Positions 9,727 through 29,536 of a stretch of 64,000 nt of DNA are shown here, piece by piece. The notes beneath the pieces are model-generated. The model saw only the letters and a program-made list of their open reading frames with translations, had not been told where the DNA came from and did no database searches. Position numbers and translations under genes: made by a program. Within the stretch, counting starts at the first letter, position 1, and each line of letters starts with the position of its first letter. This stretch comes from Arcobacter sp. LC1 (GTDB lineage Bacteria > Campylobacterota > Campylobacteria > Campylobacterales > Arcobacteraceae): NCBI GenBank assembly GCA_021378565.1, contig JAACJU010000001.1, forward strand, positions 62,001-126,000. Direction: 5' to 3'.

Positions 9727-11700
9727 ATGTTTACAGAATTTGATACTAAGAATCTAAAAGATTCAAAGGAAAATTTAAAAAGTTTATTAAAACTAAGCCG
9801 AGATAAAATAAATATTTTATTAGAGCTTGAGGATAAAACTTTTAATAATTTTATGAAACCTTATCAAGAGGTTTCCGAGAAAATAGGGGAGTTTGTTTGT
9901 CCAATTTTTCATATTGATTCAGTATGTAATAGCGATGAAACAAAAAAAGTTCAAGAGGAATGTATACCTTTAATCTCCCTTTATGAAACAGAGTTGGGAC
10001 AAAATGAAAATATTTATAAGTCTATTAAATATATACAATATAATCATAATAAGTCTTTAATGCCTATACAAAATCTAATTTTAGAAAACGAGCTAAAAGA
10101 CTTTACACTACAAGGCTGTTCTTTAGAAAAAGAAAAAAAAGAACAACTGAAAGAAATAAATATCAAACTAAGCGAAGCTAGCAATAAGTTTTCTCAAAAT
10201 CTAATTGAAGCAACAAATGCTTATGAAATGATTATTGAAGATTTTGATGATGTAAAAGAAATACCAAAATCAGATTTGCAATTTGCAAGTTTTAAAGATA
10301 AAGATGGAAAAGAAAAATATAAATTCACTTTACAAAGTCCTTCTTATATTTCTTATATGGCTCACGGTACTAATAGAAAAAAAAGAGAAGAATTAAACCG
10401 AGCATATACTTCAAGAGCTAGCAACAATGAAGAAGTGAGTGAAGAAATTTTAAGACTAGAAAAACAAAAAGCAAATCTTCTTGGCTTTAAATCTTATGCA
10501 GAGTTGAGCATAGAGAAAAAAATGGCAAAATCTTGCGATGAAGTTTTAGAGTTTTTAAATCATTTTGTTTTAAAGGCAAATAAATCAGCAAAACAAGAGC
10601 TAGAAACTATTAGAAACTATGCTAAGAAACTCGATAATATCGACAATCTCCAAAGTTACGACTTGAGTTTTTATAGTCAAAAATATAAAAAAGAATATTA
10701 TGATATTGATGAAGAATTTTATAGACAATATTTTGAAGAAGAAAGTATGCTTGAGGGATTTTTTAACTTTTTAAATAAATTTCTTGATATTAGTTTTGAA
10801 AGAATTAAAACAAAAACTTGGGATGTAAAAGTAAAGACTTACGATGTCTTAGATAAAAATAAAAAAATTATAGCTAGAATATATTTAGATTTAGAAGCTA
10901 GAAAAAATAAAAGAGCAGGGGCTTGGATGAATGATTGGTGCACAAGGTATAAAGATGAAAATTCAAATATTCATTTACCAAGTGCTTTTGTCATTTGTAA
11001 TTTTCCACCCTCAAAAAAAGGAATTAAGTCTTTACTAAGACATAGTGATGTGGTTACTTTTTTCCATGAAATGGGACATGCCTTGCATCACCTTTTAAGT
11101 AAAGAAGATGAGATTTTTGTTTCAGGGGTAAATGGGGTTTCTTGGGATGTAATTGAATTCCCTTCCCAATTTTTGGAGTACTTTGCCTACGAAGAAGAGG
11201 TACTGAAAATTTTTGCTAAGCATAATATTACAGGAAAAGTTTTAGATGATAAGTCAATTAAGAGTCTGAAAAAAGCTAGAAATTTTCAATCAGCTATGGC
11301 TACTTTAAGACAAGTTGAGTTTGCACTTTTTGATTTTAAATTGTTTATGAGTAATATCTCAAAACCTAATGATGTTCAAAAGCTTTTAGATGACGTTAGA
11401 GCAAAGATTGACTTATTACCAGTGCCAGCATATAATAAGTTCCAAAATGGCTTCTCACATATATTTGCAGGCGGTTATAGTGCAGGGTACTATTCTTATA
11501 AATGGGCCGAAGTTTTAAGCGCAGATGCTTTCTATTGCTTCTTAGAAAAAGGTATTTTTTGCAAAGAATTGGCAAATAAATATAAAAATACTATTTTAGC
11601 AAAAGGTGGAAGTGAGCATATGGACAAATTATTCTATGAATTTGCAAATAAAAATCCAAATATTGATTCCTTGCTTAAGATTGATGAAATTATCAGTTAA
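9727..11700 (+). CDS. M3-family oligopeptidase (oligopeptidase A type)
   Basis: A 657-residue cytosolic metallopeptidase expected to degrade short peptides. The zinc motif HEMGH is at about residues 447-451, within FFHEMGHALHHLL. A third-ligand region follows in SWDVIEFPSQFLEYF, and the substrate-loop signature near the end reads FSHIFAGGYSAGYYSYKWAEVLSADAF when joined across the loop. Length and motifs fit the M3A group (PrlC/OpdA) better than PepF. An AGGAAAAAT site precedes ATG 9727. Confidence 0.9.
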   Translation: MFTEFDTKNLKDSKENLKSLLKLSRDKINILLELEDKTFNNFMKPYQEVSEKIGEFVCPIFHIDSVCNSDETKKVQEECIPLISLYETELGQNENIYKSIKYIQYNHNKSLMPIQNLILENELKDFTLQGCSLEKEKKEQLKEINIKLSEASNKFSQNLIEATNAYEMIIEDFDDVKEIPKSDLQFASFKDKDGKEKYKFTLQSPSYISYMAHGTNRKKREELNRAYTSRASNNEEVSEEILRLEKQKANLLGFKSYAELSIEKKMAKSCDEVLEFLNHFVLKANKSAKQELETIRNYAKKLDNIDNLQSYDLSFYSQKYKKEYYDIDEEFYRQYFEEESMLEGFFNFLNKFLDISFERIKTKTWDVKVKTYDVLDKNKKIIARIYLDLEARKNKRAGAWMNDWCTRYKDENSNIHLPSAFVICNFPPSKKGIKSLLRHSDVVTFFHEMGHALHHLLSKEDEIFVSGVNGVSWDVIEFPSQFLEYFAYEEEVLKIFAKHNITGKVLDDKSIKSLKKARNFQSAMATLRQVEFALFDFKLFMSNISKPNDVQKLLDDVRAKIDLLPVPAYNKFQNGFSHIFAGGYSAGYYSYKWAEVLSADAFYCFLEKGIFCKELANKYKNTILAKGGSEHMDKLFYEFANKNPNIDSLLKIDEIIS

Positions 11701-11742
11701 ATTTTGCAATAATATGACAAAACAAAAATAAGGATAATTATT

Positions 11743-12279
11743 ATGGATAATAATGACACTATAAGACAATTAAGCGAAGCTTTAAACACTTTAATTTCTA
11801 AATATGAAGTTATCAGTGATGAAAACAATAAACTTAAAGATGATATTAAATCTTTGCAAGGTGATAGAGAAAAATTGCAAGATGAAATAAGCAAAGGAGA
11901 TGATGCTTCAAAAGAGCAAAATGTAAATATCGATTCTATGCTTGGTAAAATTGAGGCATTGTTTGATAGCAAAACAGGCGTAAAAAAAGAAAGTTCTTAT
12001 AACCCTAAAAGAGATTTAAACGCAAATGAAAAAAAAGATTCTTTGTATAACTCTAATGAGTTCAACAATACAGAAAAATCAGCAAAAAAAGAGGGAATTA
12101 GCTCTAAAAATTTGTATAAGACAAATTTAACTAATTCTCTGAATGAAACAAAAGAAGATAAAGATAAATCATCTCTAGATATCTTATCAAGCACGAGTAA
12201 TACAGTAAAAAATGAAGATAAAAAAACAGATAAAGAAAAAGATGCTGACAGAATTGCATCTTTGCTAAACGGGCTATAA
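11743..12279 (+). CDS. Hypothetical protein with N-terminal coiled coil
   Basis: I do not recognise this 178-residue hydrophilic protein. Residues 5-60 form a heptad-rich coiled coil (ALNTLISKYEVISDENNKLK). The middle is a low-complexity Lys/Asn/Ser/Glu linker, and the end has a conserved-looking helix, DADRIASLLNGL. There is no signal peptide or membrane segment. It follows the oligopeptidase after 42 bases with an AAGGATAATT site and may share its transcript. Confidence 0.7.
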   Translation: MDNNDTIRQLSEALNTLISKYEVISDENNKLKDDIKSLQGDREKLQDEISKGDDASKEQNVNIDSMLGKIEALFDSKTGVKKESSYNPKRDLNANEKKDSLYNSNEFNNTEKSAKKEGISSKNLYKTNLTNSLNETKEDKDKSSLDILSSTSNTVKNEDKKTDKEKDADRIASLLNGL

Positions 12280-12327
12280 GATAGTCCATTTAGTAATTTT
12301 ATTTTTAAAATATTAAAAAGTGATTTA

Positions 12328-12627
12328 ATGCTTATACAAATTCAAAAAAATATATTATATTCATATTTAAAAGTTGATTCTTTTATTTTTTTAGAAGAGG
12401 CTATCGATAGCATAGCTCCTTCAAATTTAGAGTATTATTTAAATGATTTAATAAATATTGGTAATAATAGCTTGAATGATAATTTTTTGGATCTAAGATT
12501 TTCAAAAAATAATATAAAGGATTTTTTAAATCTTGGAGACTTTGTTTTATATCTTGATTTTGAAGATGAAATATATTTGGAAAAATTTACTTCTTATGAT
12601 AATGACCATACCAATTCTCTGTGGTAA
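12328..12627 (+). CDS. Small hypothetical protein
   Basis: A 99-residue acidic protein (FVLYLDFEDEIYLEKF near the end) with no recognised domain. The ribosome binding site is weak. It is kept because nothing overlaps it, composition is protein-like, and it follows the coiled-coil gene by 48 bases on the same strand. Confidence 0.5.
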   Translation: MLIQIQKNILYSYLKVDSFIFLEEAIDSIAPSNLEYYLNDLINIGNNSLNDNFLDLRFSKNNIKDFLNLGDFVLYLDFEDEIYLEKFTSYDNDHTNSLW

Positions 12628-12715
12628 ATTTTTATAGTAGGGCTAATTAAGTAGGCTCTAATTTTAATTTTTATTAGATTTATTAATTATCTTCTTAGAT
12701 ACTGTTCTAAATAAT

Positions 12716-12743
12716 AACTGTGAAAATTTATGTTTTCACAAAT
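12716..12743. other. Candidate difH chromosome-dimer resolution site
   Basis: TGTGAAAA (12719-12726) and TTTTCACA (12733-12740) are perfect inverted arms around a six-base centre, TTTATG. Extended to 11 bases per arm, the layout is 11-6-11, as in classical dif sites, with the outer arm bases diverging. The site lies about 250 bases upstream of xerH; in XerH- and XerS-type systems the site is often beside the recombinase gene. I did not compare it with a verified difH sequence. Confidence 0.5.
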
Positions 12744-12930
12744 TAGAATAAACTATTTTAGACTATTATGCTTTTGTATGCAAATTTTAATTCATCCCAT
12801 ATTTTATAATACTCATAAGCTATTTATAATAAAGCATTTATGTATGGATTTTATTCTTCAATAAATTTTGCCAATATAATCCTAAATATTATCAAAGCTT
12901 CCTCTCTTGCCTTTATTATAAGTTTGAATA

Positions 12931-12980
12931 AGAAGTATAAGGAAGTATAAATATGTTAAAATACAGATAAGAAGTATTAT
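12931..12980 (+). repeat. Short direct repeats upstream of xerH
   Basis: AGAAGTATAA and GGAAGTATAA stand in tandem at 12931-12950, and a third related unit, GAAGTATTAT, is at 12971-12980, close to the xerH start. They could be regulator half-sites or accessory recombinase sites, or arise by chance in AT-rich DNA. Confidence 0.4.
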
Positions 12981-12995
12981 TTTGTAAGGACTTTT

Positions 12996-14045
12996 ATGAG
13001 ATATCCAATAGATTTTTTAGATAATTTTGATAAAAATTTTTTATTTTGGATACAAAGTTTTATAAAGATGAAATTAACTAGTCTTTCGAATAGGCAAGTT
13101 GAAGATATAGAAAAATTCCAAGAAATACTAGCAAAATTTAGACATGATATTTCTAGTATGCAAGAACTCAAAAGTCTAGCTAAGCAGGCAAGGCAGTGTG
13201 GTTTAATAGGTATAAATATTTTTATTAATCCAATAGAAAAATTATACAACTATGCAGTCTTGCAAGGTTTTGCCTCAATTAAAGAAATTGATGAGGAATT
13301 TCTTCGTGATTTTTTGGCAATTCATACATCTTCTTTGGCTGATGCTACGAAGAAAAATTATAAAATGTCAATTTTATCACTTTTTAAATTTATAGATAAG
13401 CAAAATGAAGATGATGAGCAAAAATCATATGTTTTTGGAATTGAACTTAAAAATTGGGAAGGTCTGAACTCAAAAACAGGCAATAAATTGCCATCTTATA
13501 TGAATGATGAAGAGGTAGCTAAATTTTTAAAAGCTATTGAAGAAACTGAATTTAAATCTTATGCTAAAGCTAAAAATCGTTTGCTTATTAAGTTGATTTT
13601 ATATACTGGCATGAGAGTTAGTGAGGCTCTGGGTATCAAACTAAATGATATGAGTGAAGACAAAAATCTTTTAATTTTTAAAATAACTGGCAAAGGCAAT
13701 AAACAAAGAATTGCAATGATACAAAAAAAATACATAGAAACTGACTTAGAAAAATGGCTAGAGATAAACAAACACCCTAGTTTGCTTTTTTCAAGTAGAA
13801 GTGCCAAGAAACTATCGCAATCTTATGTTTCTTATGTTATGGATAAAATATTAAAAACTGCAGGTATTAGAAAAGATAAAAACGGTGCCCATATGCTTCG
13901 TCATACTTTTGGCACAAAGCTATATCAAAAAAATAAAGATTTAATTTTGGTTCAAGAAGCTCTTGGCCATGCTGACATAAATACTTCTAGAATCTATACG
14001 CATTTTGACAAAGATAGACTGAAAAAAGCTACAGACATTTTTTAG
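12996..14045 (+). CDS. xerH: Tyrosine recombinase XerH
   Basis: A 349-residue phage-integrase-family recombinase. The C-terminal catalytic residues are visible in order: Arg in TGMRVSEALG, Lys in ITGKGNKQR, HxxR in HMLRHTFGTKL, His in LGHADINTSRIYTHF, and Tyr in that same motif. Campylobacter and Helicobacter use one such XerH, acting at difH with FtsK, to resolve chromosome dimers. Length and the long N-terminal core-binding region fit XerH better than XerC/XerD. FtsK is also in this window. The stop overlaps the convergent small membrane-protein gene by four bases. Confidence 0.9.
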   Translation: MRYPIDFLDNFDKNFLFWIQSFIKMKLTSLSNRQVEDIEKFQEILAKFRHDISSMQELKSLAKQARQCGLIGINIFINPIEKLYNYAVLQGFASIKEIDEEFLRDFLAIHTSSLADATKKNYKMSILSLFKFIDKQNEDDEQKSYVFGIELKNWEGLNSKTGNKLPSYMNDEEVAKFLKAIEETEFKSYAKAKNRLLIKLILYTGMRVSEALGIKLNDMSEDKNLLIFKITGKGNKQRIAMIQKKYIETDLEKWLEINKHPSLLFSSRSAKKLSQSYVSYVMDKILKTAGIRKDKNGAHMLRHTFGTKLYQKNKDLILVQEALGHADINTSRIYTHFDKDRLKKATDIF

Positions 14046-14398
14046 TTAAGATTTATTTTTACTTTAATTGGAATTTTTTTAGTATTATTATAGCTAGAAT
14101 TAGAAGTAATGTTTTTATCCCCTATTTTTACAAGTATATGCTTGCTAACAGGTGCTATATTGTTTTTTGTAAAATTACTATCTTTATTTGCTGTATTGTT
14201 ATTATCTATATTATTTGCTTTTGTGATATTGATATCATCAAATGAAGTATTGTTTTCTGAACTTAAAGAGCTATTGTTTTCTTGCTCCATAAGGTAAGAA
14301 TAAATTTTTTTATTTTTTTCATTTCTAATATAAGCAAAAACAATAAAAACTACTACAATAATAAATAAAAAAATAAAAACCATTTTAATTTTTGACAA
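14042..14398 (-). CDS. Small single-pass membrane protein, Asn/Ser-rich
   Basis: This 118-residue protein is unrecognised. Residues 6-24 are one membrane helix (MVFIFLFIIVVVFIVFAYI) followed by a charged stretch and an Asn/Ser/Thr-rich tail, probably outside the cytoplasm. The start is TTG 14398, with a GAGG ribosome binding site about seven bases upstream. It follows cheB by 54 bases on the same strand, so it may be the last gene of the chemosensory operon. Its stop overlaps the end of xerH. Confidence 0.6.
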   Translation of the reverse strand: MSKIKMVFIFLFIIVVVFIVFAYIRNEKNKKIYSYLMEQENNSSLSSENNTSFDDINITKANNIDNNNTANKDSNFTKNNIAPVSKHILVKIGDKNITSNSSYNNTKKIPIKVKINLN

Positions 14399-14452
14399 AA
14401 TATACCTCAGTATGAAACATTAATTTATTCTTAAATATTAGCGCAATTATTT

Positions 14453-15568
14453 TTAGTTTTTACTTAAAATATGTTTTTTATGTTTATTTTGTGAAAAATC
14501 TATAATATATTCATAGATTTCATCAAGAGGAGCTACAACTTTTATCGCCCCTATTTCGATAGCTTTTGCAGGCATACCAAAAACTACACAAGAATTTTTA
14601 TCTTGCGCTAGAGTAAAACCACCTGAATCAAAAATTTCTTTAATTCCAATTGAGCCATCATCACCCATACCTGTTAGCATTATGGCCATCGCTCCTCCAC
14701 CCACAGCATTGTTTAAACTTCTTAGCATAATATCAACACTAGGTTTGTGTCTACTAACTTTTTTTGCATCTAAAAGATTAATTTTTAGATTAGCATTTGG
14801 ATTGTCTCTTTTTAAACAAAGATGAATATTGCCAGGCGCTAAATAAGCATGAGATTTTTCAAGTATATCACCATCTTCAGCCTCTTTTACATCAACTTGC
14901 GAATTATCATTTAGTCTTTGTGCAAATGAATTAGAAAAACCATAAGGAATATGCTGACTGATTATAATCGGTGGTAAATCTTTTGGCAAATTTTTGAATA
15001 TTTTAAGTAAGGCCTCTATTCCTCCTGTTGATGAGCCTATACCTATTATCTTTTGCCCAGGCAACAAAGCAGGCTCACTTTTTAAAACTTCATCAGGATG
15101 GACTCTTAACTCAACCCCATTAACAAATTGATTTGCTTTTTTTAATACTGGTTTTTGCAATGCTTTTGGTTTTGTAAGCGTATATCTTTTTAATAAAAAT
15201 TCTAGATTCATTATGGTATTTTTAATATTTTTTGCAAATATTTGTATGCTTTGGCTTGCTTCTGGTTTTGGTATAAAACCAACTGCTCCATCATCAAAAA
15301 TATCATTCCCTCTTACACTTTCACCCGAAATAACCACAGCTGGCATAGGATGCAGTCGCATAAGGTTCCTTAGAAAGGTCACTCCGTTCATTTTTGGCAT
15401 ATTTATATCAATGGTTACCAAATCTGGTTCATGTAATTTTATTTTTTCTCTAGCTTCATAAGCATCACTAGCTAAATCAATTACTTCAAAATCTTCAAGT
15501 TCATTAATAAAATCTTGAATGATTCTTCTCATAGAAATCGAGTCATCAATTACTAAAACTGTATACAT
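14453..15568 (-). CDS. cheB: Chemotaxis protein-glutamate methylesterase CheB, full length
   Basis: CheB removes methyl groups from chemoreceptors when phosphorylated by CheA. The 371-residue protein has an N-terminal receiver domain (VLVIDDS, phosphoacceptor D54 in TIDINMP, Lys in GFIPKPE) and a C-terminal esterase with the triad in IGSSTGGIEAL (Ser), SQHIPYGF (His) and GMGDDGSIG (Asp). C. jejuni CheB lacks the receiver domain, so this is a fuller version. It lies downstream of cheD. Confidence 0.95.
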   Translation of the reverse strand: MYTVLVIDDSISMRRIIQDFINELEDFEVIDLASDAYEAREKIKLHEPDLVTIDINMPKMNGVTFLRNLMRLHPMPAVVISGESVRGNDIFDDGAVGFIPKPEASQSIQIFAKNIKNTIMNLEFLLKRYTLTKPKALQKPVLKKANQFVNGVELRVHPDEVLKSEPALLPGQKIIGIGSSTGGIEALLKIFKNLPKDLPPIIISQHIPYGFSNSFAQRLNDNSQVDVKEAEDGDILEKSHAYLAPGNIHLCLKRDNPNANLKINLLDAKKVSRHKPSVDIMLRSLNNAVGGGAMAIMLTGMGDDGSIGIKEIFDSGGFTLAQDKNSCVVFGMPAKAIEIGAIKVVAPLDEIYEYIIDFSQNKHKKHILSKN

Positions 15569-15592
15569 ATTTTTATCCTAGCCTTTATAATT

Positions 15593-16270
15593 TTAAAATA
15601 ATTCTATCTCCATATTTTTTTCTAATTTTTTATCTAAATCAAATAAATCAACACCATTAACATATTCTTTAATAGCAGGAGCTTTTGATATTTCATTTCT
15701 AAGTTTATCTTCTTGACTTAGTATTTTTTCATCTGTGCTATAAGCTTGTGTTACCTTGATAAAGGTTTGAAAACCATTTGCAAGTAAAATAAGCCTAGAA
15801 TGCTCTCCTCTTGTATGCTCTGAGATTAGAGGTATGCCCTCCTCTTTGCAAAAATCTTTTGCAAATTCTACATTTCTAGAACCTATGCTATTTAGTCTTT
15901 TTGAACTTAGTTTAATGATATCAGCACCACCTGAAATTTTAGCACTAAGGTTTGTTCTGAGCGAGCCTAATTTATACATTTCATTTAGCATAGCCTCAAC
16001 AGAATATAGCCCATATTTCATATCATCACCCTTGTCTTCCATAGTTGGCAATAAAAAGTGATTCATACATTTTATTTTATTTATTTTATCATAAAACATA
16101 ATAGCTACACAAGAACCCAATAAAGTTTTAAAAGCAATATTATCTTCATCTGTGCCAACAGCGAATTCACCACCTATGATAGTATGGGTTGGGAGATTCT
16201 TCGTAGTTTCATTAAAAGAAGTATTTGATTTTTTCTCTATATCTCCATCCTTATGCCCTATAATTATCAA
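15593..16270 (-). CDS. cheD: Chemoreceptor glutamine deamidase CheD
   Basis: CheD deamidates chemoreceptor glutamines. The catalytic Cys lies in LLGSCVAIMFYD, His in CMNHFLLP, and the family Thr region in SEHTRGEHSR. At 225 residues it is a little longer than typical. Its start overlaps the cheR stop by four bases, so the two are coupled. Confidence 0.92.
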   Translation of the reverse strand: MIIIGHKDGDIEKKSNTSFNETTKNLPTHTIIGGEFAVGTDEDNIAFKTLLGSCVAIMFYDKINKIKCMNHFLLPTMEDKGDDMKYGLYSVEAMLNEMYKLGSLRTNLSAKISGGADIIKLSSKRLNSIGSRNVEFAKDFCKEEGIPLISEHTRGEHSRLILLANGFQTFIKVTQAYSTDEKILSQEDKLRNEISKAPAIKEYVNGVDLFDLDKKLEKNMEIELF

Positions 16271-17115
16271 ATGTATTCCTTGATTTTCAGAAAAATATTC
16301 TGCCCTATTCGCTCAACATGTTTTGTAAGAATTCTAGGACTTTCAGAATGCCCTATATATAAAGTACCCCCCATTTTTAGCTTTTTAAATAGCTTTACTA
16401 AGATTTTATTTTGATCATCTTCATTGAAATATATTAAAACATTTCTACAAAAAATAACATCAAAAAAATCATCTTCAAAAGGGTAACGCTCATCAGTTAA
16501 ATTTATTTTTTGAAAAGTTATAAGCCTCTTGAGCTCATCTTTTGCTTTTATGAAAACTTCTTCACTATAAGCATCTTTTTGCACACGTCTTTTAAAATAT
16601 TTTGCTGGACTTATCCATGTTGGAAATTCTTTTCCACTTTTTGAAAAACCATAAATACCTTCACTAGCTTGCTTTAAAACATTTGTATCTATGTCACTTG
16701 CGATTATTGATGTTTTAATTTTATTTATATATTTTATTTCAGCTTCTTTTATCGTCATTGCTATCGAATAAGGCTCTTCACCCGTAGAAGATGCGCAACA
16801 ATATATATTTATTCTTGGAGCATCAAAAGAAGCAAATTTAGGCAATACTCTAGTAATTAAATCATTGAAATGAAATTCTTCTCTAAAAAAATTTGTTTTA
16901 TTTGTAGTAAAAGTATTGATAAATTGAGTGCTTAGTTCTTTATCATTTTCAATGCTGGCTAATAAATCATCAATATCACCATGATAATTTAAATTTCTTC
17001 TTAGCTTTTGTAATCTATTTGAAATCATAATGTCTTTATTGTCAACCAAGCTAATACCTGTTAGTTTATAAAGAATTTTTTTTACATTTTCATTTCTTTG
17101 ATTTTGGCTAATCAT
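16267..17115 (-). CDS. cheR: Chemoreceptor methyltransferase CheR
   Basis: CheR methylates receptor glutamates using SAM, opposing CheB. The 282-residue protein has the N-terminal helical domain (TTNKTNFFREEFHF) and a methyltransferase domain with CASSTGEEPYSIAM and FCRNVLIYF. It lies 12 bases after cheA and overlaps cheD. Confidence 0.95.
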   Translation of the reverse strand: MISQNQRNENVKKILYKLTGISLVDNKDIMISNRLQKLRRNLNYHGDIDDLLASIENDKELSTQFINTFTTNKTNFFREEFHFNDLITRVLPKFASFDAPRINIYCCASSTGEEPYSIAMTIKEAEIKYINKIKTSIIASDIDTNVLKQASEGIYGFSKSGKEFPTWISPAKYFKRRVQKDAYSEEVFIKAKDELKRLITFQKINLTDERYPFEDDFFDVIFCRNVLIYFNEDDQNKILVKLFKKLKMGGTLYIGHSESPRILTKHVERIGQNIFLKIKEYI

Positions 17116-17127
17116 AATTTAAACTTA

Positions 17128-19131
17128 TTAAGATGCTTCTACTTTTGCTTTAAAAATGTTTTTTTCTACCATTTTTTGCGCTTCGATTATTCCTAGAACA
17201 TCCAAAATAAGCCCTATACTGCCATCACCTCTTACTGTTGCAGCTCCAATCCCTTCAACTGCTCTAAAATTCTTATCCAAAGGTTTTACAACTACTTGAT
17301 GTTGTGTTAAAAATTCATCAATAAAAATAGCAATTTTTGTAGTACCTGATTGCACAACTATAAGCATTCCATCTATAAGTTCTGTACATTTTGGTTCTAC
17401 ATCAAAAAGTCTGTATAGTCTAACCACAGGAATAAATTCTTCTCTTAGCATAAGTAAATCTTGACTACCATCACCAATATTTTTAACCATAGCTTTTTTT
17501 GGCTGTAAAGATTCAATTATTGAGCTAAGTGGCAGTATATATTTTGTGTCTCCTACTGCAATATCAAGTCCATCAAGAATAGCTAGAGTAAGTGGCAACA
17601 TAATAGTAATAGTTGTACCAATCCCTAATCCAGTATCTAGTTTGATTATTCCTCCTAGTTTGGTAATATTTGTTTTAACAACATCCATACCAACACCTCG
17701 TCCTGAGATGTCCGTAACTTTTTCAGACGTGCTAATTCCCGCACCAAAAATAAGCATCGCCTTTTCATTGTCATTCATAGCAGCTAAAGTTGCATTGTCA
17801 ATTTGCCCTTCTTTCAGGGCTTTTTCTACCACTTTATCAGTATTAATTCCAGCACCATCATCTTTTATAGTTATAACCATTTGCCCATTTGCTTGTTCTG
17901 CACTTATAACTATTAAGCCCACTTCACTTTTATTTACTCTAAGTCGTTCTTCAGGCGTTTCAAGTCCGTGGTCTAAAGAATTTCTGATTATATGCATCAA
18001 AGGATCAGTCAAACCCTCAATCATAGCTTTGTCAATCTCTACATTGTCACCTTGATGTTTGAATTCAACTTTTTTATTAAGTTTTTTTGAAATATCACGA
18101 ACAATTTTTGGAAATTTTGAATATATTGACTCCATCGGTACCATTCTAATACTCATAATAGAATCTTGCATTTCTCTAATATGACGCTCAAGTAAATCAA
18201 GTCTTTCTACTACAGAGTTACTAATCTTCGTATCTTCAATAGAATTAGCAAATTGTGTTAACATTGCATTAGTGATTACTAAATCCCCAACATTGTTCAT
18301 AAGTAAATCAATTTTATCAAGATTTACTCTTATATTATTTGAAGCTGAAACTTTACTTTTGATATGATCATTAACTGCTTTAGTATTTGTCTTAATATTT
18401 GTTTTAGTGCTTGCTTTGTTTGGTATTATTTCTTGGCTTGGTTGTGTTACTTGGTTTGCTTGTATTTCATCTTTTTTTATTTCTTTAGTAGGTTCAGGTT
18501 CTTCATCAAAAAAGCCAAAATTTTCATTTTCTCCTGAGACGTTAGCAGAATTGTTATTTTGTTCATCATCATTAAAAATACCATAAGGTTTAGAAAAGAT
18601 ATTTTGATTAGTATTTATTTCTTGATTGGATGATTTTTGGCTAATATTCTCTTGACTGGAAATTCCTTGACCAGAACTTTTTTGATTTATATTTCCTTGA
18701 CTCAGAGTTTCTTGAGGTTCTTTTTGCTCATCTAAACAATGCTCTTTTATATCTTCTAGCAAGTCTTTTGTTTTTTCATCAAAAATCTCTTGCGTCATGG
18801 CATCTTCCATATCCAAATCCAAGATTTCTTTCATTACATCAAGAGCATCTATTAAAGTTGTGGCTATAGGTATAGTAAAAGTCATTTCGTGGTTTCTAAG
18901 TTTATCCATCATATTTTCGACTTCATGGGTAAACTTAGCAAACCAACTTAGCTCAACAGAAGCACCACTCCCTTTTAAGGTGTGCACATCTCTAAAAAGT
19001 TGTCCCATTTCTTCATCTGTTAAACTTCCTGTAGTTTCAGTTTCTAATAATACATTATCAGCTGACTCAAAAAGTTCCTCAGCCTCCTCTAGAAACATTT
19101 CTCTATATTTAGTCATATCAAAACCAGACAT
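17128..19131 (-). CDS. cheA: Chemotaxis histidine kinase CheA without fused receiver
   Basis: A 667-residue CheA. P1 carries the phosphorylated His50 in DVHTLKGSGA. Residues about 130-260 are a Gln/Asn/Ser-rich linker with imperfect SSQ/NQ repeats instead of a clear P2 domain. Then come the dimerisation helices, the ATP-binding domain (N box IIRNSLDHGLE, G1 KDDGAGI, G2 DISGRGVGMDVVK) and a CheW-like C-terminal domain. The protein stops after the CheW domain, unlike C. jejuni CheA, which carries a receiver domain. The cheY-like gene lies directly upstream. Confidence 0.95.
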   Translation of the reverse strand: MSGFDMTKYREMFLEEAEELFESADNVLLETETTGSLTDEEMGQLFRDVHTLKGSGASVELSWFAKFTHEVENMMDKLRNHEMTFTIPIATTLIDALDVMKEILDLDMEDAMTQEIFDEKTKDLLEDIKEHCLDEQKEPQETLSQGNINQKSSGQGISSQENISQKSSNQEINTNQNIFSKPYGIFNDDEQNNNSANVSGENENFGFFDEEPEPTKEIKKDEIQANQVTQPSQEIIPNKASTKTNIKTNTKAVNDHIKSKVSASNNIRVNLDKIDLLMNNVGDLVITNAMLTQFANSIEDTKISNSVVERLDLLERHIREMQDSIMSIRMVPMESIYSKFPKIVRDISKKLNKKVEFKHQGDNVEIDKAMIEGLTDPLMHIIRNSLDHGLETPEERLRVNKSEVGLIVISAEQANGQMVITIKDDGAGINTDKVVEKALKEGQIDNATLAAMNDNEKAMLIFGAGISTSEKVTDISGRGVGMDVVKTNITKLGGIIKLDTGLGIGTTITIMLPLTLAILDGLDIAVGDTKYILPLSSIIESLQPKKAMVKNIGDGSQDLLMLREEFIPVVRLYRLFDVEPKCTELIDGMLIVVQSGTTKIAIFIDEFLTQHQVVVKPLDKNFRAVEGIGAATVRGDGSIGLILDVLGIIEAQKMVEKNIFKAKVEAS

Positions 19132-19144
19132 TATATCTTCCTTC

Positions 19145-19513
19145 TTATCTGTTTAAAACTATATTTATAGCCTTCAATAATTGATCAGGGATAAAAGGCT
19201 TTACTACCCAACCAGTTGCCCCAGCTGCTTTACCTCTAACCTTCATCGAATCGCTTCGTTCAGTTGTTAGGACTAAAATTGGAGTTTTCATATAATGAGG
19301 TACTTTTCTTAAATTTTCTATTAAAACAAGTCCATCCATTTGGGGCATATTTATATCAGTAATAATTAAATCAAAAACTGCATTGTTTGCTTGTTTTAAA
19401 CCATCTAAGCCATCAATACCCTCAACAATATCTTCATAACCACCCTCATTTAAAGCATACCTTAACATATCCCTTAACATTTTAGAATCGTCTACAATTA
19501 AAATTTTTGCCAT
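19145..19513 (-). CDS. CheY-like single-domain response regulator
   Basis: A 122-residue receiver domain: acidic pocket DD at 8-9, phosphoacceptor D53 in ITDINMP, Thr in VLTTERSD and Lys in VVKPF. The start chosen is the ATG at 19513, with AAGGAAGG just upstream; the open frame continues further upstream but without a better start. It is the first gene of the che operon and probably the partner of this CheA. It may drive the flagellar motor or act as a phosphate sink. Confidence 0.9.
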   Translation of the reverse strand: MAKILIVDDSKMLRDMLRYALNEGGYEDIVEGIDGLDGLKQANNAVFDLIITDINMPQMDGLVLIENLRKVPHYMKTPILVLTTERSDSMKVRGKAAGATGWVVKPFIPDQLLKAINIVLNR

Positions 19514-19609
19514 AACCTTCCTTAGAGCATTTAAAATAAACAAATATTTCTCAATTATCTTAGCTAAAATTAGCTTCAATAACTTATAAAAATTTTGTTT
19601 TAGAAAAAT

Positions 19610-21781
19610 TTATAATTTTGCTAGTGCTAGCTCTATTCGCTCTTTTTGCACTTTTAAAACTTTTATTTCAACAATCTGACCTAAGCTTAGTACATCATTA
19701 ACATCATTTACTCTTTGCTTAGATAATTTTGAAATATGAAGCAAGCCTTCTCCACCTTTTGGCAAGGCTAAAAATGCTCCAAAATCTACTATCTTTTCTA
19801 CCTTAGCTTCTAGAACTTCATCTACTTTATAAGTTTTTTCAAAATCAATACTAGGCTTTTTACCTGCACCATTACTTGAAATCGTTTTGATGTGTTCGCA
19901 AGCATCTAAAATAGCATTTTTATTAGAACCACTTACTTTAACATTTCCACTATTTCTATCTAAATCAATAGAAACATCAAATTTTTTAATAATATCTTTA
20001 ATAGTTGCACCAGCCTTACCGATTACAACCATAATCTTACTAGGATCAATAATAAACTGCTCAATCAAAGGCAAAGATTTACTAGGAACAATCTGCTCAG
20101 CAGCTTTTTCCATAAGTACTAGAATATGCTCTCTCGCAGTTTTTGCTTGTTTTAAAGCTTTTTTTAAAATATCAAGTTCTATACCACCAAGTTTTATATC
20201 CATTTGTAAAGCAGTTATCCCATCTTTTGTGCCTGCTACTTTAAAATCCATATCTCCATCATGGTCTTCAAGCCCCATAATATCAGTCAAAATTGCATAA
20301 GAATCTCCTGAACTAACTAATCCCATAGCAACTCCAGCTGTAAGTTTAGCAATAGGAACTCCAGCAGCTTTTAGCGCAAGTGAGCCAGCACAAACACTAG
20401 CCATAGAAGAAGAACCATTTGATTCTAAAATTTCAGAAACTAAACGAATACTTTCTCCAAAATTTTTATCTATTGTAGCTTCGAGTGCTTTTTTTGCAAG
20501 ATTACCATGCCCAAGTTCTCTACGTCCTACTCCAAAAATTGGCTTAGCCTCACCTACACAAAATCCTGGGAAATTATAATGAAACATAAATCTTTCTATT
20601 GAAGCTGATTTTTCACTTAATCTTTCATACATTTGTCCATCTTTTGCTCCAGCTAAAGTAGCAACTACTAAAGCTTGTGTTTGCCCTCTTGTAAAAAGAC
20701 ATGAACTATGTGCTTGTGGTAAGATATTTGTCTCAATTTCAATATTTCTCACTTCATCAAGTTTTCTTCCATCAGCTCTAATATTATCATCCAAAATCAT
20801 ACTTCTCACAAATTCTTTTTTAAGCACAGATACAAGCTCATAAACTTTTGCAAAGTCTATATTTTCATTATCAGCAAAATCATTAGCTAAGATTTTTTCA
20901 GATAATTCCTTTAATTGGTTTGCTCTTTCACTTTTTGCTAGTTTAGCTAAAGCGTCTTTGATTTCTTTTCCATATTTTTTTCTAAGATTTTCAAGTATTT
21001 TTTCATCAACACCATTGCTATCTAAATCTAGCTCTTTTGGATCTTTTGCTATAGTTGAAAAAGCTTCTTCATAGCTTATGTTCGCTTCTTTTAAAGCCTC
21101 GTTTGCTGCTTCGATAGCTTCAATCAATTCATCTTCATTTAATTCATTATTTGAATGTGTTTTTGAAAAAGCTTCTATGTCTATTTCTATAATTTCTTCA
21201 GAAGAGATAGCTTTCATTTCAATCATCAAAATTTCATCTTTTGTGCCTGCTAAAAAAAGTTCAAGCGTGGATTGTCCCATTTGACTTGAAGATGGATTAA
21301 CTACAAATTTTCCAGCTATTTTTGCTAGTTTTATTCCACAAACAGATTTATTAATTGGTAAATCAGAATAAAATAAGGATGCCGAAGCTGCATTTAGTGC
21401 TATACTTTGTAAATCTATTTCTTTATCAGCACTTAAAACCATAACAGTTATAGTAGTTGGGTAATTATAGCCTTTTGGAAATAAAGGTCTTAGACTTCTA
21501 TCTATTATTCTTGAAGTAAGAGTTTCAAAATCACTTGGTTTACCTTCTCTTTTTATAAATCCACCTGGTAATTTTGCACCTGCATAGTATTTTTCTATAT
21601 ATTGAACCGTTAAAGGTGTAAAATCTTCAGAGCTTGGATTATCAAATTCACTTACAACTGTTGCTAAAATAACACAGTCTTCAACTTGTAATAATACTGA
21701 GCCATTAGCCTGCTTTGCTAACTTTCCAAATTCATAACTTTCTATTTTTCCATTTAATTCAAATTCAAACAATGTCGACAT
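19610..21781 (-). CDS. pnp: Polyribonucleotide nucleotidyltransferase (PNPase)
   Basis: A phosphorolytic 3'-5' exoribonuclease of the RNA decay machinery. The 723-residue protein has two RNase PH-like domains (FTPLTVQYIEKYYAGAKLPGG and the second core with GGRREL-like GVGRRELGHGNLA), then a KH domain (VVIGKAGATIKDI) and an S1 domain (EAKVEKIVDFGAFLAL). Full length for the family. Confidence 0.97.
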   Translation of the reverse strand: MSTLFEFELNGKIESYEFGKLAKQANGSVLLQVEDCVILATVVSEFDNPSSEDFTPLTVQYIEKYYAGAKLPGGFIKREGKPSDFETLTSRIIDRSLRPLFPKGYNYPTTITVMVLSADKEIDLQSIALNAASASLFYSDLPINKSVCGIKLAKIAGKFVVNPSSSQMGQSTLELFLAGTKDEILMIEMKAISSEEIIEIDIEAFSKTHSNNELNEDELIEAIEAANEALKEANISYEEAFSTIAKDPKELDLDSNGVDEKILENLRKKYGKEIKDALAKLAKSERANQLKELSEKILANDFADNENIDFAKVYELVSVLKKEFVRSMILDDNIRADGRKLDEVRNIEIETNILPQAHSSCLFTRGQTQALVVATLAGAKDGQMYERLSEKSASIERFMFHYNFPGFCVGEAKPIFGVGRRELGHGNLAKKALEATIDKNFGESIRLVSEILESNGSSSMASVCAGSLALKAAGVPIAKLTAGVAMGLVSSGDSYAILTDIMGLEDHDGDMDFKVAGTKDGITALQMDIKLGGIELDILKKALKQAKTAREHILVLMEKAAEQIVPSKSLPLIEQFIIDPSKIMVVIGKAGATIKDIIKKFDVSIDLDRNSGNVKVSGSNKNAILDACEHIKTISSNGAGKKPSIDFEKTYKVDEVLEAKVEKIVDFGAFLALPKGGEGLLHISKLSKQRVNDVNDVLSLGQIVEIKVLKVQKERIELALAKL

Positions 21782-27310: not shown

Positions 27311-29536
27311 TTACATTAATATTTCACGAGCGCCTCTAGTATTTGGTGCAGATAAAATACCAGATTCCTCTAATTGCTCTACTATAGTCGCTGCTCTATT
27401 GTATCCTATGTTCAATCTTCTTTGAATATAAGAAATTGAGCTTTTCTTCTCATTTAATACTATACTTTTTGCATCTTCAAAAAGCTTATCAAATTGTCCC
27501 GTGTCAGTTCCATTTATATTTTTTGAGTTTTTTGCTTCACCTTGTTTTAAAAAATCAAGATTATAATTAGGTGCTCTTTGTGCTTTTAAAAAATCAACTA
27601 CTTTTTGTATTTCTTCTTCACTACTCCAAGGCGCATGCAATCGTACAAGCCCAGAGGTTCCAGGAGGAGTAAATAACATATCGCCTCTACCAAGTAAGGA
27701 TTCTGCACCCATCGAGTCTAAAATAATCTTACTATCAACTTTTTGCCCTACTTTATAGCTTATTCTTGAAGGAAGATTTGCTTTAATAAGTCCAGTTACA
27801 ACATCAACTGAAGGTCTTTGGGTGGCAACTATTAGGTGTATTCCACTAGCTCTTGCCATTTGAGCCAACCTTGCAATAGAGAGTTCAACATCTTTTCCAC
27901 TTGTCATCATTAAATCAGCCAATTCATCTATTATGATTACGATATAAGGAAAAGCTTCAAAGCCATCTTTTTTAGCCTTTTCATTGTAAGTTTCAATACT
28001 TTTTGTTTTCGTTTGACTCATTAAATTATATCTTTTTTCCATTTCTAATACCATATTAGCAAGAGCATTTATGGCTTCAGTTGCTTTTGTAATAACAGGT
28101 GTTAGAAGGTGTGGGATGTCATTATACATAGAAAACTCAAGCATTTTTGGATCTATCATAATGAGCTTTAGATTATCAGGCGAATTTTTATATAAAAGTG
28201 ACAAAATCATAGCATTAAGTCCAACAGATTTACCACTTCCTGTTGTTCCTGCGATTAATAAATGTGGAAGCTTTTTAAGGTCTGTCACGAAAGGTTTACC
28301 CACTATATCTTTACCTAAAATCATAGTAAGTGGTGACTTTGAATTTTGAAAAAGCTCACTATCTAATATTTCTTTTAAATAAATAGTCTGCACGACATGG
28401 TTTGGCACTTCGATACCCACAACATCTTTGCCAGGGATTGGTGCTTGGATTCTTATCGTTTGTGCTTTTAACGCCATTGCTAAATCATCTTGGAGATTAA
28501 GAATTTTTGATACTTTAACATTTGGTGCAGGTTTAAATTCAAAAGTAGTAACCACAGGGCCTGTATATGTTCTTATAACATCGCCTTCTATTTTAAACAT
28601 AAGTAATTTTTTTAGCAAATCTGCTATTTTTTTATCAATTATGCCTTCATTCACTTTGGTTTTATTCTCTTTTGGTGCTTTTGAAAAAAAGCTTGAAGGC
28701 GGAAGTTTGAAATCAAGTGGTTTTTCACTAGCCCCTACTTCTATATCATCAAGAAGTTTTTTATTTTCTTCTAATTCATCTACGATAACTGAAATTTTTT
28801 CTTCAATTTTAGGCTTATATTTTTCTTTTTTTGCATTTTTCTCTTCATTTATTATATCTGCTTCTAGAATATTTTCTTTTTTTGTATTATCTTCAACTTC
28901 AAAACTAATCTGTGCAGTATCTCCAATTTCTTTGACTACTACTTTTGGTTTTTTTATTTCTTCTTTGTTTTTTTTATTTTTAAGTTCAATTTTTCTTCTT
29001 TCAATTTTTTCTTGAATTTTCCTTAGACTTTTTTCCTTAGGCTTAATATAACTTAAGAGTTTGTATATATTTCTAGGGCTAGTATCTCTTTCTTCTTTTT
29101 CTTCAAAAAATATAAACAATGAAATGACAAATCCTGTTAAAACAAAAATCCAAAGCCCGATATTTCCAATGAATGGATCCAAAGAACTTGTTATAAAAAA
29201 ACCAATTTTTCCTTCAAATGCACCATTTGTTGTTAAAGCTTGAAAAATCAAAAAAGTAAAAACTAGCAAAATCCATGTTAAGGTTTGCAAAATGCTTTGT
29301 TTTCCTTCTTTAAAGCCATAATTATATAATAAATACATAAATAAAAATGGATATAAGTAAGCAATTAGCCCAAAATACTCTTTTGAATAAATAGCAAAAT
29401 AAAAACCAAGAGAACCCACAATATTTGGAACACTTGCGATAGTTGAAATTTCTAAGTAAAAAATTATAAAAATAAAAATTAGTGATATGATTTTTTTTAG
29501 TATTTTAAAGCCTTTAGAGTCTTGAAATTTTTGCAA
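27311..29536 (-). CDS. ftsK: DNA translocase FtsK
   Basis: FtsK pumps chromosomal DNA at the division septum and activates Xer recombination. The 741-residue protein has N-terminal membrane helices, a charged Lys/Glu-rich linker (short for the family), the motor with Walker A GTTGSGKSVGLN and Walker B IVIIIDELADLMM, and a C-terminal gamma winged helix (SISYIQRRLNIGYNRAATIVEQLEE across the helix pair). XerH is encoded about 13 kb away. Its start overlaps lpxD by 23 bases. Confidence 0.95.
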   Translation of the reverse strand: MQKFQDSKGFKILKKIISLIFIFIIFYLEISTIASVPNIVGSLGFYFAIYSKEYFGLIAYLYPFLFMYLLYNYGFKEGKQSILQTLTWILLVFTFLIFQALTTNGAFEGKIGFFITSSLDPFIGNIGLWIFVLTGFVISLFIFFEEKEERDTSPRNIYKLLSYIKPKEKSLRKIQEKIERRKIELKNKKNKEEIKKPKVVVKEIGDTAQISFEVEDNTKKENILEADIINEEKNAKKEKYKPKIEEKISVIVDELEENKKLLDDIEVGASEKPLDFKLPPSSFFSKAPKENKTKVNEGIIDKKIADLLKKLLMFKIEGDVIRTYTGPVVTTFEFKPAPNVKVSKILNLQDDLAMALKAQTIRIQAPIPGKDVVGIEVPNHVVQTIYLKEILDSELFQNSKSPLTMILGKDIVGKPFVTDLKKLPHLLIAGTTGSGKSVGLNAMILSLLYKNSPDNLKLIMIDPKMLEFSMYNDIPHLLTPVITKATEAINALANMVLEMEKRYNLMSQTKTKSIETYNEKAKKDGFEAFPYIVIIIDELADLMMTSGKDVELSIARLAQMARASGIHLIVATQRPSVDVVTGLIKANLPSRISYKVGQKVDSKIILDSMGAESLLGRGDMLFTPPGTSGLVRLHAPWSSEEEIQKVVDFLKAQRAPNYNLDFLKQGEAKNSKNINGTDTGQFDKLFEDAKSIVLNEKKSSISYIQRRLNIGYNRAATIVEQLEESGILSAPNTRGAREILM

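Follow-up and report, generated by a model that had tools for sequence, protein, structure and literature searches.

A probable clade-specific difH site beside xerH in an Arcobacter-like bacterium suggests that recombinase and target are exchanged together

The window, a 64,000-nucleotide stretch of the draft genome of Arcobacter sp. LC1, carries a xerH gene between a conserved 99-aa ORF and a block of chemotaxis genes that includes pnp (Table 1). The xerH product matches H. pylori XerH over its full length (E 7.5e-97), possesses all six catalytic residues (R-K-H-R-H-Y) and scores 328 bits against the solved structure of XerH and 80 bits against that of XerD. Matches to the XerC, XerD and XerS models fall far below the cut-offs. 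By these comparisons the gene encodes a true XerH, and the genome has no other strong XerH. The stretch beside xerH that a preliminary description of this DNA had called gene-free indeed contains no credible ORF within 12628-12995. An inverted repeat lies in this stretch, approximately 255 bp upstream of xerH; the site is intergenic and low in G+C, as for difH. Additionally, an FtsK with a gamma domain is encoded 14.6 kb from the site and would be the translocase expected to activate XerH.

Table 1. Features of the putative xerH/difH locus, in window coordinates.
Feature	Position	Strand	Basis
Conserved 99-aa ORF, which bounds the xerH/dif slot of relatives on the left	12328..12627	+	Locus comparison
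difH, published positions 10-38 (p = 12755 - p), TAATTTGTGAAAACATAAATTTTCACAGT	12717..12745	-	15 invariants, unique, conserved versus flanks in 11 distinct relatives
Perfect 8-6-8 inverted repeat of the preliminary description	12719..12740		Pattern search, genome-unique at 0 mismatches
Left XerH-binding arm, positions 12-22, T13 at 12742, inner TGAAAA 12733-12738	12733..12743	-	Homology (PMC3325230, PMC5241119); binding predicted
Six-base centre CATAAA between predicted strand-exchange points	12727..12732	-	Predicted from H. pylori difH geometry
Right XerH-binding arm, positions 29-38, TTTTCACAGT	12717..12726	-	Homology; binding predicted
xerH, 349 aa, catalytic R207 K233 H299 R302 H325 Y334, recognition N74 and Y280 (H. 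pylori 73 and 290)	12996..14045	+	Similarity search, alignment
Cumulative GC skew peak of the 474 kb contig	14270..14270 (C1:76270)		Skew positive before, negative after
cheB-cheD-cheR-cheA-cheY-pnp block, which bounds the xerH/dif slot of relatives on the right	14453..21781	-	Locus comparison
FtsK gamma domain within a 743-aa open frame	27314..27493 (C1:89314-89493)	-	PF09397, 88.5 bits

The repeat, TGTGAAAA-TTTATG-TTTTCACA, is a perfect 8-6-8 palindrome, and its 11-6-11 extension (12716-12743) is paired at 9 of 11 arm positions, which reproduces the coordinates and symmetry first recorded for it. Inverted repeats with at most two mismatches number two in the window, versus 0.18 expected from dinucleotide shuffles, and the 8-6-8 repeat is the sole perfect copy both in the window and in the 1,858,382-base genome. 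When up to three mismatches are allowed, the genome contains 48 palindromes, versus 53 for a reversed control pattern. Since loose palindromes are this common in an AT-rich genome, the palindrome by itself is little proof of a dif site.

Debowski et al. tabulated 24 difH sites with 15 invariant positions, namely T10, T14, TGAAAAC at 17-23 and TTTTCA at 29-34 (PMC3325230). Read on the minus strand, from 12745 to 12717, the site is TAATTTGTGAAAACATAAATTTTCACAGT and carries all 15 of them. The plus-strand reading adopted in the preliminary description misses T14 and C23 and was rejected; the dif geometry seen there stands, with the functional orientation being minus rather than plus. In a scan of the genome with the 15 invariants, the window's site is the sole match and the reversed control pattern gives none, and the consensus difH of Campylobacter, Arcobacter and Helicobacter has no match in the whole genome with up to three mismatches. 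The site is therefore unique in the genome, as one perfect palindrome and as one invariant match, no better difH lies elsewhere, and there is a single copy per chromosome in this draft of 99.78% completeness. Compared with the difH sites of C. jejuni and H. pylori, the site shares the invariants but differs in the outer arms and the centre, as a clade-specific version. We consider it very probable that the palindrome serves this Arcobacter-like bacterium as difH, the site of chromosome dimer resolution, in such a clade-specific version.

The same site occupies the same place in 14 loci (11 distinct) of the nearest XerH clade, which was defined by at least 66% XerH identity and includes uncultured Arcobacter, Arcobacteraceae and Campylobacterales genomes. 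Across the 11 distinct relatives, the mean relative entropy of the site reaches 1.50 bits per column, versus 0.33 and 0.24 in the two flanks. Where dif adjoins xerH in relatives, it nearly always points opposite to the direction of xerH, as in the window. Perfect arm symmetry, which the preliminary description had pointed out, was rejected as a defining trait, because the arms are asymmetric in most relatives, in which an ATGAAAA arm is paired with a GTGAAAA arm; the perfect symmetry of the window's site is incidental.

The position upstream of xerH, in a gene-free stretch, would also suit an operator or a terminator-like hairpin in the xerH promoter region with no role in recombination, and a dimeric regulator could bind an eight-base palindrome with a short centre. 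Such a function is very unlikely, however, since the site matches the asymmetric difH invariants T10, T14 and C23, which would be superfluous for a symmetric operator, the homologous site of a Sulfurospirillum-like genome (G055) stands 27 kb from xerH, and the site is single-copy in each genome. That the repeat is a chance palindrome or a relic, with the working dif elsewhere, is scarcely credible and already largely refuted: imperfect palindromes are plentiful in AT-rich intergenic DNA, as the 48 against the control's 53 illustrate, but the genome has neither a second invariant match nor a consensus difH within three mismatches, and the site is conserved across diverged species far beyond its flanks.

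Over the 474 kb contig, cumulative GC skew reaches its maximum 1.5 kb from the presumed difH, so that the change of sign anticipated in the preliminary description, from positive to negative, is present. This peak coincides with the convergent gene boundary at 14045, at which a block of plus-strand genes ends. The contig skew is a good but local indicator of the terminus, and the earlier placement of the replication terminus here holds as far as one contig of a 26-contig draft reaches. In a relative with a complete genome (G001), the site is offset from the skew peak by 49 kb and from the point opposite dnaA by approximately 120 kb; the 49 kb falls inside the range of 0.8 to 90 kb published for dif to skew-peak distances in other species (PMC2731167). 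Elsewhere in the window, between 38000 and 54000, the negative GC skew trend is lost, unlike in the flanking DNA, and this stretch may be foreign or rearranged. Taken together, the invariants, the neighbouring xerH, the skew switch and the lack of a better site bear out the difH interpretation, which is strongly supported within the limits of a draft assembly and of a gap to xerH longer than the spacing in relatives.

In the mechanism that we propose, two XerH monomers would bind the two arms of difH, FtsK would unite the pair of difH copies carried by a chromosome dimer at the division septum and activate XerH, and XerH would cleave and exchange strands at both edges of the six-base centre, yielding two monomers. 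The difH of this clade combines the usual inner TGAAAA with a changed outer arm and centre that match a changed XerH recognition helix, in which Tyr stands at the position of H. pylori K290.

Three dif versions exist in Arcobacteraceae, each of which tracks XerH phylogeny; beside that of the window's clade, the remaining family members have either the ordinary difH TTAGTATTGAAAACTATAATTTTCAAACT or a GG-type dif, TGGAAAC...TTTCCA, which is present in 22 of 120 genomes and breaks the published invariants in both arms. All versions occupy one slot, bounded by the 99-aa ORF at one end and by cheB-cheD-cheR-cheA-cheY-pnp at the other. On the XerH tree the dif version changes only twice over 71 labelled rows (shuffled mean 31.4) and thus co-segregates with XerH type. 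On the tree of polynucleotide phosphorylase (pnp) it changes 11 times where 2 are possible, and the dif version therefore does not follow species. Specifically, sister species with chemotaxis and pnp flanks that are 80-98% identical have different xerH+dif modules at the locus. In the pairs G004/G022 and G013/G030, identity is mostly 80-98% across the chemotaxis genes and pnp and 62-64% in XerH; in G001/G020 the respective values are 74-93% and 51%; and in G014/G031, with only the left side on the contig, prmC is 72%, an M3 peptidase 79% and XerH 52% identical. Several of the compared genomes are metagenome bins, and G004, G013 and G001 are single-contig. The xerH gene and dif act as a linked unit in a fixed slot at the terminus, in which versions of differing specificity have probably replaced one another in related species, and the comparison suggests that the enzyme and the DNA sequence that it recognises change as a pair and are exchanged as a pair between species. 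Among plasmid and phage records, none matched XerH with at least 60% identity as a mobile carrier. In the open-access literature searched, only two papers name Arcobacter together with XerH, and none that we consulted reports a GG-type dif or xerH/dif module exchange.

The slot of one genome, G068 (L291:5728-8065), holds xerH genes and dif sites of two types each, in the order ordinary xerH, left half of an ordinary dif, GG-dif, GG-type xerH and complete ordinary dif. The left half-site, TTAGTCTTGAAAAC, lies 51 bp from the start of the ordinary xerH, compared with 53 bp in G004, and 1212 bp from the full site. This arrangement, a single case, suggests the leftover expected of a small element integrated into dif. 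At the window's own locus, a search for relics of canonical or GG half-sites gave no canonical half-site within 11601-16000; the sole fragment, TTTCCAAA at 12576, was rejected as a candidate, as it falls within the 99-aa ORF and was attributed to chance. In the slots of G013 and G030 (L293, L296), 33 kb and 9 kb separate xerH from dif, and dif is inverted relative to cheB when compared with G004; the two gaps are possibly insertions at dif.

The three xerH/dif versions might instead be old paralogues that coexisted in an ancestor and were differentially lost, with no exchange between lineages. Such a history would account for the one slot used by all versions and for the two versions retained in G068, and the conflict between the Pnp and XerH trees arises either way. 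Nevertheless, we regard it as rather unlikely, because the second module of G068 sits insertion-like inside the resident dif, where it leaves a left half-site whose distance from xerH is unchanged and is followed at its distal end by a full dif, and because G068 alone, of the genomes examined, was recognised as carrying two full modules.

Structural work on H. pylori XerH assigns the reading of the inner base pairs to the N-terminal helices (residues 12-88) and that of the outer arm to helix K (285-299), in which K290 contacts T4 and perhaps G3, corresponding to positions 14 and 13 (PMC5241119). In all 99 of 99 XerH-site pairs, residue 73 (H. pylori numbering, as for residue 290) accords with base 19, with H:G in 26 and N, A or S with A in 73, and it is the only XerH column that predicts this base without error. 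Residue 290 tops the normalised mutual information with base 13, where R or K accompanies G in 45 pairs and A in 9, S accompanies C in 13 and A in 1, and Y accompanies T in 31; for base 13, some other XerH columns make about as many errors or slightly fewer, and 16 of the Y:T pairs are Sulfurospirillaceae sequences of shared ancestry that were obtained after the rule had been framed. The window's XerH carries N74 and Y280 at the corresponding positions, in agreement with A19 and T13 of its site. The outer-arm AGT read by K/R290 is absent from the window's site, which has T13 with Tyr instead; this pair replaces AGT with K/R290 throughout the clade and is not among the difH invariants. Residue 73 may contact base 19, a contact not named in the text of the H. 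pylori XerH structure paper (PMC5241119). The XerH of G013, which falls in the GG clade, has S73 and has lost the SHV signature, and its genome has an ordinary difH, with no GG-type site found; this exception fits the residue-73 rule. As phylogenetically independent switches amount to 1-2 pairs, with which a sign test cannot reach significance, we put forward the code of residues 73 and 290 for dif bases as a hypothesis. On this footing, we tentatively suggest that self-contained xerH+dif modules, their specificity set largely by these two residues, may replace one another in place at the terminus via recombination into the resident dif, a process that G068 would show half-way; the window's site would be one of these versions.

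Further dif-like sites and XerH-like proteins were observed in other genomes. Contigs C1, C9 and C43 of G077 and contig C44 of G069 carry dif-like TTACTCTTGAAAACCT(TA/AG)ATTTTCA, in several copies on separate contigs and besides or instead of an ordinary dif; these are possibly mobile elements that use XerH. Two small contigs of G068 have extra dif-like sites with a shared flank (L305:9355 and L306:482), one immediately following the last CRISPR repeat and the other near HipA-like genes, which look like ends of dif-using mobile elements. A complete genome has a second difH-like site with the centre CTATTC (G083:C1:1249129), approximately 318 kb from the first, and G074 encodes a second full-length XerH-like protein (G074:C15:161353-162333, L212), 41% identical to the window's XerH, beside its clade I copy.

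A dimer resolution site is hard to change, since every division depends on a match between the enzyme and its site. The present comparison shows that such a change occurred more than once in Campylobacterota; it suggests that enzyme and site arrived jointly in this slot, probably by way of the old dif, and it points to the XerH residues that may re-specify dif. Given the GG-type form, TGAAAAC...TTTTCA can no longer be taken as invariant in XerH sites, as had been published, and knowledge of the versions lets dif be located in genomes where a consensus search fails.

The H. pylori difH/XerH pair is the biochemically and structurally characterised system. Like it, the window has a single recombinase with catalytic R-K-H-R-H-Y, two arms around a six-base centre, the inner TGAAAAC...TTTTCA with T10 and T14, a recombinase gene near the site, a terminus location and an FtsK. 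The two differ in the outer left arm (TAATTTG in the window versus TTAGTTA in H. pylori), the right arm (TTTTCACAGT versus TTTTCAAACT), the centre (CATAAA versus CTGCAC) and XerH position 290 (Tyr versus Lys), and the inner eight arm bases are perfectly symmetric in the window genome, unlike in H. pylori difH. With the Campylobacter, Arcobacter and Helicobacter consensus, the site shares the full set of invariants, whereas the consensus itself is absent from the window genome. The difH of Sulfurospirillum deleyianum and other Sulfurospirillaceae, like that of the window, has T13 in the outer arm (TAATTATTGAAAAC), and the Sulfurospirillaceae XerH proteins, a sister group of the window clade in the XerH tree, likewise have Tyr at position 290 in the relatives examined; their difH differs in the right arm and in the spacing to xerH, from which it can be tens of kb away. 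The GG-type dif of other Arcobacteraceae, Sulfurospirillum cavolei and S. arcachonense resembles the window's site in slot, geometry, orientation rules and adjacent XerH, and is distinct in having G as base 19, His at XerH position 73 and broken published invariants. Finally, difSL/XerS and dif/XerCD share the function and the general 11-6-11 plan, with different recombinases.
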